This document shows positions 25,156 through 35,964 of a stretch of DNA of 36,282 bases, in pieces. A model generated the notes under the pieces. That model searched no databases and was not told where the DNA came from. It saw nothing but the letters and a program-made list of their open reading frames with translations. Source of the DNA: a virus; IMG/VR virus record IMGVR_UViG_3300004805_000019, positions 1 to 36,282 of that record, one strand, 5' to 3'. Position 1 is the stretch's first letter. The number at the start of each line of letters is the position of its first letter. Position numbers and translations under genes: made by a program.

Positions 25156-25658
25156 TACTTAAAGTCTTTCATTAATATATCTGCAGTTTGCTCTGGTGAA
25201 AGCATCTCTGTGGTCATGTTTTCTATATGAACGTCTATAATTTCTATTTCGCCATCTTCAGTAAGAAGTTTTGGCTGGGCAGACTGTTGTCCATTCATAT
25301 TGAGTTTTGCACCCATTCCTGCACCAAGAGCAGCGGAATTCATTAGATCTGAAATACTTAACTCTCCTGGCCCTCTTCTTGCGCCAGCAGTTTCGGCTGC
25401 TTTGTATGAGGTTAGATTTTTTAATACATTATTTTTTTGCTTCAATGATTCGAGCTTTAATTCTCCGAGTTTTGCTAACCCTACTACAAACCCAACGTCT
25501 GTACTTTGAATTACACGATCTCGTAATATATCAATTATACCTGCTAAATCCTCTGCCTCAGAGTCTAACTTCTTTAATAACTTTTCTGACTCCTCCATAA
25601 CAATAGTGTCAATTTTTTGAATAATGACATTGGCGCTCTCTTTTTTATTTATTTGCAT
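25155..25658 (-). CDS. Putative terminase small subunit
   Basis: This 167-residue protein is close to T4 gp16 (164). It is mostly helical, with a charged coiled-coil-like first 75 residues (Glu-Glu-Ser-Glu-Lys-Leu-Leu-Lys-Lys-Leu and a long Leu/Lys/Glu helix at 60-85). A Gly/Ala/Met-rich linker and an acidic C-terminal part follow. Small terminases are oligomeric helical proteins encoded just before the large subunit. Here one gene intervenes, but all three overlap or abut. No DNA-binding motif is readable, so the call is mostly from position, size and coiled-coil content. Ribosome binding site GAGGTG precedes the ATG and lies inside the 3' end of the upstream endonuclease gene. Confidence 0.5.
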   Translation of the reverse strand: MQINKKESANVIIQKIDTIVMEESEKLLKKLDSEAEDLAGIIDILRDRVIQSTDVGFVVGLAKLGELKLESLKQKNNVLKNLTSYKAAETAGARRGPGELSISDLMNSAALGAGMGAKLNMNGQQSAQPKLLTEDGEIEIIDVHIENMTTEMLSPEQTADILMKDFK

Positions 25659-26353
25659 AACAACACCTCACTAAGTTTTATATCTATATATTTATTTAAA
25701 TTCTTGTCTGCTGTATATGGTATAATTATCAAAGTTATATTATTTTGTTGGCACCAAAGTTCTTTATTTATATCTCTAAGTTGTTGATTGATAAAGGCTT
25801 GTTCTGTTTTATGCCATTTAGGATGTCTTACATAATGTTGTCTACCATTATATTCAAAGGCTATTTTATGTTCTGCATTATAACCATCTAACTCGTAAAA
25901 CTTATGCTTATCGTAATAAAACCGTTGCTTTTTAAGAGGCATTTGTAATTTTACTTCTAAAAACTGCCTAACTTTTTCTTCGGTTTTGTAAATATTACAT
26001 TTCGGGCACCAGCTATTTTTACACTTCACATCGTCCCATTTGGCGAACCAACTGTGCCCTTTTGAGCATTCCCACTCAACTTTACTACGATTATTCTTAT
26101 ATGTCTGACTTTTTAGGTTGCCATTTTTACTTTTTGCATGTTCTTGTAGCACAGAGATATCAGTAATAAAATAACCAGCACAAGCTGGACACCAACTACC
26201 TTGTTGGATATGACCCCAATTAGCCTGCCAAGTATGCCCTTTTGAACACTGCCACAATAATTTAGCCCTGCTATTTTTAAATACTGGGCTGAGTAAGATA
26301 CCACCCAATCTTTGAGCATGTTCTTGTGGGATAGATATATTTAATAACCGCAT
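25649..26353 (-). CDS. Homing-type endonuclease, two GHxW zinc-ribbon repeats plus Vsr-like (EDxHD) nuclease domain
   Basis: A 234-residue protein. Two repeats of about 58 residues each carry Trp-x-Cys-x-x-Gly-His-x-Trp (34-42, 94-102) and Trp-Cys-Pro-x-Cys (54-58, 115-119), the pattern of probable zinc-ribbon domains (PF14311-type). The C-terminal domain has Glu126, Leu-Asp156-Gly-Tyr-Asn, Phe-Glu167-Tyr-Asn-Gly-Arg-Gln-His173, Arg-Asp194-Ile-Asn-Lys and Ile-Ile-Ile-Pro-Tyr. This agrees with the EDxHD/Vsr-like fold described for phage homing endonucleases such as I-Bth0305I. It is a free-standing gene inserted between the sigma-like and small terminase genes, overlapping the latter by 10 bases. 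A paralogue lies at 35089-35964. The start is preceded by a weak GAGA site and a hairpin. Whether it is active, and its target site, are unknown. Confidence 0.75.
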   Translation of the reverse strand: MRLLNISIPQEHAQRLGGILLSPVFKNSRAKLLWQCSKGHTWQANWGHIQQGSWCPACAGYFITDISVLQEHAKSKNGNLKSQTYKNNRSKVEWECSKGHSWFAKWDDVKCKNSWCPKCNIYKTEEKVRQFLEVKLQMPLKKQRFYYDKHKFYELDGYNAEHKIAFEYNGRQHYVRHPKWHKTEQAFINQQLRDINKELWCQQNNITLIIIPYTADKNLNKYIDIKLSEVLLCK

Positions 26354-26373
26354 ATACTTATTTCTCTATAACC

Positions 26374-26399
26374 GATAAAGGGCCCTAGAGCCCTCTATC
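26374..26399 (-). promoter_or_regulatory. Hairpin upstream of endonuclease gene (weak terminator or translational block)
   Basis: A 10-bp stem with one G-T pair (GATAAAGGGC with GCCCTCTATC) and a 6-base loop lie 20 bases before the endonuclease ATG at 26353. No T tract follows on the minus strand, so it is either a factor-dependent or poor terminator for the sigma-like gene, or a structure limiting expression of the endonuclease. The rest of the 26354-26469 gap holds nothing else I recognise. Confidence 0.55.
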
Positions 26400-34462: not shown

Positions 34463-34516
34463 ACTAATCCTTCCGCTCACGACATTCCAGACGATGTAAT
34501 AATCAGAGGTATTATA

Positions 34517-35092
34517 ATGTCAACCAAGTACAACCCATTAAATGTGGTGTCTGCTATTGTTGGGATGAGTTCCGTTAAACGCTTCCACGGCAGAGAGACT
34601 ATAAAAGTTCAAACGATAGCAGACCATTCGTGTAGGGCCGCTCAAATTTCTTTTTTCCTTGCTATGGAGTTTTATAGCGGAGACACTGAAAAAGCAAACT
34701 CTGTTTCTGTCCTGACTCTCTGGCACGATTTCCCAGAGAGTTTATTAGAGTGCGATGTGCCTACACACGTTAAAAATATGGGTAGTGTAGGAAAAGAGTT
34801 AAAAGCAGCAGAAAAGTTGTTTGTAAATAATTTATTTCCAGACGATCCGTATTTACAAAATCTGATGTTAGAGGAAGCACCAAGAGAAGATTTTAACTTG
34901 ATGAAACTCGCTGACTATTTAGATTTTGGTTTCTACGTAAAAAATGAGGTTAGCTTAGGCAATAAACGGTTTGAGGAGTTTTTACTTTGGTTTCAAAAGG
35001 GCTTAACTAAGTTTCCTCAGGATGTTCTTGACTTACCTACAGCCCAAGCTAGTATAGAGTTTATTCTTTGCCAGCAAACAAAGTCAATATGA
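34517..35092 (+). CDS. HD-domain 5'-deoxynucleotidase (YfbR-like)
   Basis: A 191-residue protein with the YfbR-type HD signature: Arg22, Thr-Ile-Ala-Asp-His37-Ser, Trp-His70-Asp71-Phe-Pro-Glu74, and Lys-Leu-Ala-Asp133-Tyr-Leu-Asp. YfbR (199 residues) dephosphorylates deoxynucleoside 5'-monophosphates using a divalent metal; the metal ligands His37, His70, Asp71 and Asp133 are present. In a phage it would tune nucleotide pools during replication. Substrate preference cannot be read from the sequence. Start: ATG after AGAGG. The 54-base gap before it shows no promoter or terminator, so it belongs to the replication operon. Its stop overlaps the next gene's ATG (ATGA). Confidence 0.82.
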   Translation: MSTKYNPLNVVSAIVGMSSVKRFHGRETIKVQTIADHSCRAAQISFFLAMEFYSGDTEKANSVSVLTLWHDFPESLLECDVPTHVKNMGSVGKELKAAEKLFVNNLFPDDPYLQNLMLEEAPREDFNLMKLADYLDFGFYVKNEVSLGNKRFEEFLLWFQKGLTKFPQDVLDLPTAQASIEFILCQQTKSI

Positions 35093-35964
35093 GCACAAGG
35101 CGACATAATCTCAAACAATTACAAGCCTTTGCTGAAAACCTGGGTGGCAAAGTATTATCCACAGAATATATCAACTGTAAAGAGCCTATGGTATGGCAAT
35201 GTTTACTTGGTCATACTTGGACAACAAACTGGGACTGTATTCACAACGACAAAACGTGGTGTCCCACTTGTTCAAAAGTTGCTATACCAAAACTACAAGT
35301 TTTACAAGATTTTGCTAGAAATAAAAAAGGGGTGTTAGTCTCATTAGAATACAAGACAGCTAAAGCACCACTATCTTGGGAATGCGAAAAAGGTCATACT
35401 TGGCAAGCTTCTTGGACTAATATCAGCCATAAAAGTTCACCCACTTGGTGTCCGGTCTGCGCTAAGAAAAGTAAACCTACGATTATTATACTACAACAAC
35501 ATGCTGAGTCTTTGGGCGGTAAATTATTATCAACATCTTATACAAACAACAAGGAAAAGTTAAACTGGGTGTGTGGTAAAGAGCATACTTGGAAAGCTAA
35601 CTGGGCACACATTAAACGAGAAATTTGGTGTCCAGAGTGTGCTTCTTTCAAAACAGAGAAGCAGGTAAAGACACTATTATCTAAGCGTTTAAATATTTCT
35701 TTTACTAAAACCAGATTTGTTTACAATAACAAGAGGTATGAGTTCGATGGGTATAATGAAGAGCATAAGATAGCCTTTGAATACCACGGATATCAGCATT
35801 ACATCTATCCAAACTATTGGCATCGGACAGAAGAGATTTTTAAAGCTGCCCAACAAAACGATATAAACAAAGAGCAGTACTGTAAAGAAAATGGTATAAG
35901 ATTAATAATTGTGCCTTACACAGAAGAAAAAAATTTAAAGCAATATATTGAAAGTGTTGTGTGA
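35089..35964 (+). CDS. Homing-type endonuclease, three GHxW zinc-ribbon repeats plus Vsr-like (EDxHD) nuclease domain
   Basis: I start it at ATG 35089, overlapping the previous stop, giving 291 residues; a TTG at 35068 in frame lies inside the nucleotidase gene. Three repeats carry the Trp-x-Cys...Gly-His-Thr-Trp...Trp-Cys-Pro-x-Cys pattern (36-61, 97-124, 160-184); the third has Glu-His-Thr-Trp in place of Gly-His-Thr-Trp. The nuclease domain has Glu190, Phe-Asp220-Gly-Tyr-Asn, Phe-Glu231-Tyr-His-Gly-Tyr-Gln-His237, Asn-Asp258-Ile-Asn-Lys and Ile-Val-Pro-Tyr. It is a clear paralogue of the protein at 25649-26353, with one more zinc repeat, and probably recognises a different target. It separates the nucleotidase from the primase-like gene. 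Confidence 0.77.
   Translation: MSTRRHNLKQLQAFAENLGGKVLSTEYINCKEPMVWQCLLGHTWTTNWDCIHNDKTWCPTCSKVAIPKLQVLQDFARNKKGVLVSLEYKTAKAPLSWECEKGHTWQASWTNISHKSSPTWCPVCAKKSKPTIIILQQHAESLGGKLLSTSYTNNKEKLNWVCGKEHTWKANWAHIKREIWCPECASFKTEKQVKTLLSKRLNISFTKTRFVYNNKRYEFDGYNEEHKIAFEYHGYQHYIYPNYWHRTEEIFKAAQQNDINKEQYCKENGIRLIIVPYTEEKNLKQYIESVV

Follow-up and report, generated by a model that had tools for sequence, protein, structure and literature searches.

Tandem zinc modules joined to a nuclease domain are already described from phage homing endonucleases. Passages of a 2025 study (PMC12350094) report CapR/DUF4379-like domains together with EDxHD/Vsr homing endonucleases in phage group I and II introns, and call such enzymes a large unrecognised outgroup of the EDxHD/Vsr homing endonucleases. 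In a 2023 report (PMC10448857), the passages on T5orf172 homing endonuclease genes (HEGs) describe CapR/DUF723 zinc repeats, for example in ICP1 gp174, where recombination between repeats produced an in-frame 228-base deletion; they also describe domain swapping between HEGs and propose that targets diversify thereby. The phage homing endonuclease I-Bth0305I, in the relevant part of PMC3943268, has a long multi-domain DNA-binding part. Here we analyze a viral DNA of 36,282 nucleotides (IMG/VR record IMGVR_UViG_3300004805_000019, the whole of which we call the window) that carries two genes of this general kind, P1 and P2:

25649..26353, minus strand: P1, EDxHD/Vsr-type homing endonuclease gene, free-standing, two zinc modules (open reading frame, Pfam, PHROG, locus comparison)
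26180..26341, minus strand: P1 zinc module 1, residues 5-58 (module hidden Markov model, HMM; Pfam DUF4379/CapR)
25997..26164, minus strand: P1 zinc module 2, residues 64-119 (module HMM, Pfam)
25652..25996, minus strand: P1 Vsr-like nuclease domain, residues 120-234 (alignment; the fold comparison was of P2)
35089..35964, plus strand: P2, EDxHD/Vsr-type homing endonuclease gene, free-standing, three zinc modules (open reading frame, PHROG, locus comparison)
35104..35271, plus strand: P2 zinc module 1, residues 6-61 (module HMM)
35287..35460, plus strand: P2 zinc module 2, residues 67-124 (module HMM, model)
35473..35640, plus strand: P2 zinc module 3, residues 129-184 (module HMM, model)
35641..35961, plus strand: P2 Vsr-like nuclease domain, residues 185-291 (structure comparison with 1vsr and 3r3p)

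Translation gives proteins of 234 (P1) and 291 residues (P2), in which modules of the form helix, W-x-C-x3-H-x-W-x-x-x-W, short helix, W-C-x2-C follow one another at a pitch of ~60 residues and lead into a C-terminal domain of ~105-115 residues with the motifs K-T-E, D-G-Y-N, A-F-E-Y-x-G-x-Q-H-Y and D-x2-K. The two nuclease domains are 51% identical over their aligned stretch. An earlier note on this DNA, made from the letters alone, had claimed that the genes share one nuclease domain and one kind of zinc repeat, in two and three copies, and this is borne out by translation, alignment and the module HMM, the last trained on an alignment that includes the P1 and P2 modules and so not independent; Pfam, PHROG and the fold comparison agree on zinc modules joined to a Vsr-like nuclease. 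P1 matches DUF4379 (4.4e-13, two stretches) and CapR (1.6e-7) above the Pfam cut-offs, phrog_559 spans both proteins (P1 4.4e-39, P2 6.7e-44), and phrog_9084, annotated as homing endonuclease, matches P2 at 7.1e-10. The label 'HNH' carried by phrog_559 is not borne out, with zero HNH family matches to either protein up to E 1; T5orf172 and GIY-YIG likewise gave no match up to E 1, so that neither gene is a T5orf172 HEG. The zinc ligands C-x(2-4)-H...C-x2-C are kept in all 74 distinct modules of at least 46 residues located by the HMM, and homologous repeats lacking them, which the earlier note had named as evidence against its own idea, did not turn up. Our first module collection had been picked by its ligands, for which reason ligand conservation in it proves nothing, and it took one of the two modules of L037:591-959 (numbers preceded by L denote the loci compared).

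The nuclease assignment was extended with an AlphaFold2 model of P2 (8 sequences, mean pLDDT 78.7). Against solved structures, residues ~186-291 gave as best chain E. coli Vsr (1vsr; modest Z of 7.8, 3.1 Å, 98 residues aligned) and as second best the catalytic domain of I-Bth0305I (3r3p; modest Z of 7.5, 3.3 Å, 90 aligned), a leading pair that, as far as a predicted model can tell, fits the sequence-level reading of the domain. The comparison supports a catalytic fold of Vsr/PD-(D/E)XK type. As candidates for the E-D-x-H-D active site, residues E190, D220, E231, Q236, H237, D258 and K261 (P2 numbering) are invariant in the 8-sequence alignment. Foldseek returned nothing at E < 0.001 for the whole P2 model or for a two-module model (17 sequences, mean pLDDT 83.7), and searching by sequence turned up no credible solved relative of either array or nuclease.

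If these genes are mobile, relatives of the phage would be expected to lack them. We compared the window with ten IMG/VR loci whose TerL is 76-84% identical to the window TerL (best segment); these represent two phage types and not ten independent cases. The features used were:

22579-24561: TerL (Pfam/PHROG)
25155-25658, minus strand: gene 3' of P1, small terminase by position only (no Pfam/PHROG family match)
26470-27471: sigma-like gene flanking P1 (PF04542 below cut-off)
25620..26355, minus strand: P1 insertion junctions (window 26356 = L007:9479, window 25619 = L007:9540)
34517..35092, plus strand: HD-domain nucleotidase gene 5' of P2, ATGA overlap (PF12917)
35093..35965, plus strand: P2 insertion junctions (L007 and L017 have the HD gene, a few bases and the primase start, window 35966)

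P1 is flanked by the sigma-like gene and by the putative small terminase gene, the start of which it overlaps by 10 bases. Its site is empty in 10 of 10 related loci that span it, the sigma-like gene (or its end) being joined to the 25155-25658 gene, and the 60 bases between the P1 junctions in L007 hold no gene except the start of the next one. P2 lies between the HD nucleotidase gene and a DnaG-like primase gene, the first ~105 codons of which are in the window (the L007 relative matches PF08275 DNAG_N); it is absent after the HD gene in all three related loci that reach this point, and in L007 the primase follows directly. Wherever the window covers them, the genes flanking P1 and P2 are complete on each side, and no Rfam family, introns included, reached the gathering score in the window, a result that covers the intron types known to Rfam. 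Based on relatives lacking P1 and P2 at exact junctions, together with this Rfam result, both genes are free-standing insertions between conserved genes; insertion within an intron was considered and rejected on the Rfam result. The empty-site relatives that the earlier note had proposed to look for thus exist for both genes, from which we infer mobility. Its placement of P2 near a primase is made more precise by the HD nucleotidase gene on the other side, and that of P1 near the terminase is right for the operon, although the immediate neighbors of P1 are the sigma-like gene and a small terminase assigned by place only.

An orthologue of P1 (79%) sits at the same place in IMG/VR contig 3300045970_000063 (L017, L021). 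This copy (L021:4093-4704) has a frameshift in module 1, due to decay or sequencing error. The same contig has no gene at the P2 site, and across the HD gene from it lies another family member. As a possible trace of co-conversion we considered a peak of divergence next to P2, which is at best a weak hint: the HD protein is 55-63% identical between window and relatives vs. 71% among relatives, but since the primase and other neighbors vary too, we do not use it as evidence.

P1 and P2 belong to one family, to which extent the word 'paralogous' in the earlier note stands, but they are not sisters. The nuclease-domain tree groups P1 first with L021 (97/94) and next with L047 (99/98), leaving P2 outside; since L047 shares a contig with L009, a relative with an empty P1 site, the P1 clade occupies other places too. 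Nor are the P1 modules nearer to any consecutive pair of P2 modules (P1_1 to P2_1/2/3: 0.41, 0.41 and 0.52; P1_2: 0.32, 0.44 and 0.45). Origin of P1 from P2 by repeat loss is therefore rejected, given the grouping of P1 with L021 and L047, and the two genes were acquired independently. The contrast of two and three repeats within the window is, consequently, no evidence of repeat change within one gene.

Such change was found in other phages, so that the suggestion of repeat gain or loss fails for the window pair itself and holds for alleles that share a site. A scan with the nuclease alignment yielded 49 loci, and same-site differences in module number occur in three phage lineages, two of them cultured (6/4, 5/4, 4/3, 3/1, 3/4 and 2/3 modules). 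At a site between RecA and a sigma-like gene, L018, L020 and L037 carry 6, 4 and 4 modules in 300-base flanks that differ at 2 and 0 bases. The L018A and L020A alleles differ at 49 of 717 array positions and at 0 of 345 in the nuclease; L037 differs from both in the array and partly in the nuclease (41/342). Module counts by Pfam, which is blind to our module motif, are 6 for L018A, 4 for L020A and 5 for L023. A second variable site occurs in the same lineage, L020 and L023 being parts of one contig: five modules are present in L023 and four in L022, L024 and L025. A single in-frame 183-base indel with 1 mismatch in 1062 bases accounts for the difference; in the shorter allele, module 1 corresponds to modules 1 and 2 of the longer one fused together, a comparison that does not polarise the direction of change. 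Module number varies in two of the five IMG/VR groups that have modules and are represented by at least two contigs (the RecA-sigma and L022 groups, from the same lineage), a count that leaves out the remnants L041-44 and the distant L058-62 group, in which the HMM finds no modules. In the same lineage, we also observed that a DNA-methylase-like gene has an intein (sub-threshold Pfam) in L020:6155-7471 and none in the near-identical L018 (6341-6913).

Complete genomes of cultured phages provide the cleanest pairs. The Lactococcus phages AM9 and WRP3 carry, after NrdA, a gene (HE1) with 4 vs. 3 modules, separated by an in-frame 189-base indel with 0 mismatches in 930 bases and 35 identical bases at the junction. 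Outside the indel HE1 shows 0 differences in 915 positions, while its 300-base flanks show 4 and 7 (11/600); in these sequences the gene is thus more alike than its surroundings, as a recent transfer would give. A second Lactococcus site has 3 modules in AM9, 1 in WRP3 and 4 in AM4, and in phiL47 three modules and no nuclease motif; phage 949 has two modules in a different neighborhood, and P1048 five at the NrdA site (stricter pattern). In Listeria, LP-037 and P70 have 2 vs. 3 modules, with 0/270 differences upstream, 73/360 in the array and 1/345 in the nuclease. Sixteen Listeria records matched, of which 11 carry the homing gene and 5 match the downstream part only; one of these five, LP-010, has another gene there and no clean empty site. 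Sites vary in 2 of 2 cases in Lactococcus, 1 of 1 in Listeria and 0 of 2 in Campylobacter, fractions that are not a rate since Lactococcus and Listeria were pursued for their promising matches. Several copies per genome are common, with 5, 5, 3, 2 and 1 matches in the five records searched. That the array differences among metagenome contigs are repeat-assembly artefacts strikes us as highly improbable. Repeats can collapse in assembly, and L018 and L020 are uncultured contigs; however, the alleles differ by scattered substitutions and not by collapse alone (L018A-L020A), the four-module allele at the L022 site recurs in three contigs and the L037 allele in two (the second being L073), and the module changes of cultured phages exclude such an artefact as a general cause.

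Incomplete members of the family also occur. There are nuclease-only open reading frames without modules (L041-L044:2992-3279), a nuclease fragment between ssb and RecA in L071/L072 (L071:2095-2204), and module rows without nuclease at L037:591-959 (122 residues) and L090:2893-3492. Just upstream of the Listeria homing gene, L108:834-1229 and L109:127-522 encode a 131-residue two-module protein without nuclease that resembles a stand-alone CapR-type binder.

Two alternative explanations draw on this material. The main rival holds that fixed selfish genes are unselected and decay neutrally, that their repeats recombine toward loss and that module number has no meaning for the target. Remnants are indeed common, as illustrated by the nuclease-only L041-L044, the L071/L072 fragment, the 122-residue L037 array, the phiL47 array lacking the nuclease motif and the frameshifted P1 orthologue in L021. 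Neutral decay nevertheless seems to us unlikely, because in all six cases where module number differs at one site the reading frame stays open and the modules whole, the ligands are kept throughout, the nuclease shows 0-1 differences while the arrays differ (L018A-L020A, AM9-WRP3 HE2, LP037-P70), and nonsynonymous changes gather at a few positions (see below). The other alternative is a restriction-like or regulatory role, directed against co-infecting phages or satellites or exerted by repression of transcription, with the array in an arms race. It could appeal to CapR homology (CapR, such a zinc module, represses for a satellite according to passages of PMC10448857), to array-only open reading frames (L108:834-1229, L037:591-959) and to records that label such genes 'restriction enzyme'. 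We regard it as distinctly less probable than neutral decay: homing is what predicts that the genes are inserted between conserved neighbors and missing there in relatives, that a genome holds several copies, and that HE1 is more alike than its flanks. A restriction-like or regulatory role and homing are, in any case, not exclusive.

Where modules change was assessed from substitutions. Over 15 nearest-neighbour module pairs from IMG/VR, the four x positions of W-x-A-x-W-x-x carry 38 nonsynonymous and 1 synonymous changes vs. 126 and 71 at all other positions (Fisher p 3e-6; seven disjoint pairs, p 0.003), values to be read with the qualification that the positions were picked on this set after viewing it and that the pairs are not independent. 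The corresponding four positions in the independent Lactococcus set show 37/6 vs. 230/150 elsewhere (p 5e-4, nearest-neighbour pairs). The two-module model puts the residues at these positions where the second strand ends and the short helix begins. These data are suggestive, and not proof, of a candidate base-contact surface under diversifying change. The array evolved significantly faster than the nuclease in five of ten allele comparisons, although the ten pairs were hand-chosen and share alleles; pairs formed between L018A, L020A and L037 make up three of the five.

Cumulatively, our findings point to P1, P2 and their relatives as intronless homing endonucleases of the EDxHD/Vsr type, whose zinc array sets the target and evolves by recombination of modules, a reading to which we give a probability of roughly 0.78. 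The N-terminal row of ~60-residue treble-clef-like zinc modules (DUF4379/CapR type) would bind DNA and place the C-terminal Vsr-like nuclease on its target in a phage without the gene; repair of the break from the carrying phage would then copy the gene into the gap between two conserved genes. An established copy would split its own target, which may leave the zinc row free to change. Modules would recombine within one gene, and probably also between the several copies in a genome; whole modules would come and go in frame and the interiors of modules would be exchanged, with hardly any change in nuclease or flanks. Some of the new rows could enter new sites, and module exchange probably resets the choice of target, with the variable residues of W-x-A-x-W-x-x as best candidates for base contacts.

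Several observations weigh against this account. First, rows of 6, 4 and 4 modules occupy one site, and module number alone therefore does not dictate the insertion site of a resident copy. Further, module number is constant in the gene between TerS and TerL of L018/L020/L028, which has short indels only, in the L033-35 and L036/38/39 groups, and in the Campylobacter Hef genes at NrdA and RecA, which keep their length across 15 and 40 records. Module change is thus frequent in some lineages, not universal. The array is not faster than the nuclease between AM9 and AM4 (p 0.88), the two clean indel pairs show no faster array apart from the indel itself, and the flank downstream of the LP-037/P70 gene is also divergent (81/262). 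As regards the hot spot, besides the way its positions were chosen, the six disjoint Lactococcus pairs show no enrichment (p 0.30). On the structural side, both nuclease Z values are below 8, sequence profiles failed to reach any solved structure (best E values 0.43 and 0.12, both to a designed protein), and the zinc module has no convincing solved match, the two-module model giving a best Z of 3.6 and no row with Z of at least 5. P2, finally, misses the Pfam cut-offs: it has sub-threshold zinc-ribbon and CapR matches only (CapR 14.1 bits vs. 24.2 needed), and DUF4379 is not listed. Its modules do align to the DUF4379/CapR family and match the module HMM, so that P2 probably works like that family, with Pfam membership not claimed.

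The question of how homing endonucleases come by new targets is an old one, and alleles that are one module apart in an otherwise identical gene (AM9/WRP3 HE1) or that differ in the array only (L018A/L020A) make the effect of a single module on the target directly measurable. A bolder version holds that each ~60-residue module recognizes a short, fixed stretch of bases with the x residues of W-x-A-x-W-x-x and that phages reprogram the nuclease by adding, deleting or swapping modules, in the manner of PRDM9 and its fingers. We hold this idea to be speculative and rather unlikely; if it is true, near-identical phages with 6, 4 and 4 or with 4 and 3 modules are matched pairs for a module-to-base code. 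Independent reading of bases by modules would amount to a new compact recognition scaffold, and otherwise the alleles still inform on the turnover of selfish genes in phages.

Other features of the window and the related loci were noted in passing. Two HNH genes (PF01844) lie on the minus strand at 29777-30502, between ssb and RecA, and at 31431-32096, upstream of ssb, and are missing at those places in all ten related loci. The genes at 24562-25155 and 28084-28632, also on the minus strand, are missing there from the related loci and have no Pfam/PHROG family up to E 0.01; the second is by eye a possible nuclease. The TerL of L012:6576-9539 (and of L011) has an in-frame intein after residue ~295, with a LAGLIDADG match tested on L012, and the window TerL is without it; a GIY-YIG/NUMOD3 gene directly after TerL in L021:7179-8096 is absent from the window. 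A scan for promoters and terminators around P1 found promoter-like sites no more often than in shuffles (5 vs. 5.3), a tRNA scan found no tRNA, and megablast of window 20000-36282 against phages gave no match. In the gene between TerS and TerL (L020:8006-8899 vs. L018:7448-8329), the sole array change is an in-frame duplication of four residues (WHAI) in module 3. L075:1862-3790, from Campylobacter phage QDYZ, is of Hef type; it has seven CxxC units, and its C-terminal part contains a Mom-like stretch (a match to PF25680 below threshold). A 387-residue protein beside the L023 gene (928-2091) has a C-terminus that by eye is similar.

Comparison with the known systems places P1 and P2 as follows. 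Like the enzymes in the passages of PMC12350094, they have ~60-residue CapR/DUF4379-like domains followed by a ~100-residue C-terminal EDxHD/Vsr-like nuclease, are phage-borne and belong to a family with several copies per genome. They are unlike the four cases there that sit in group II introns and have three to five domains, P1 and P2 being free-standing with two and three modules; change of domain number at a fixed site is not treated in those passages. With the T5orf172 HEGs, as the passages of PMC10448857 portray them, the family shares related zinc modules in rows, but those have a T5orf172 and not a Vsr-like nuclease; beyond them, our data extend the picture to another nuclease class, to three lineages with several alleles at one site, and to the positions at which changes concentrate. 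A report of module-number change in the EDxHD/Vsr class was not found in the open-licence papers searched, a weak negative as subscription papers are mostly outside it. I-Bth0305I (EDxHD, 3r3p) resembles P2 in the fold of its catalytic domain (Z 7.5), with no match found at the sequence level. Hef of phage U5 and Hef71-74 of Campylobacter phage NCTC12673 have CxxC module rows (3-8) and the Vsr-like nuclease motif, different Campylobacter Hef genes having 3, 4, 7 or 8 modules or CxxC units; unlike P1 and P2, which end shortly after the nuclease domain, they have a further C-terminal domain (Mom-like, sub-threshold). PRDM9, a eukaryotic methyltransferase and not a nuclease, also has a tandem zinc array (of C2H2 type) with fast repeat recombination and changes focused on contact residues; it works alike only, and no homology is claimed. 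The architecture of P1 and P2 is already in print (PMC12350094), and in the module change a process known from the T5orf172 enzymes is now seen in the Vsr class as well, in alleles that are more cleanly matched. The family is thus an ordinary one, and its same-site alleles are the useful material.

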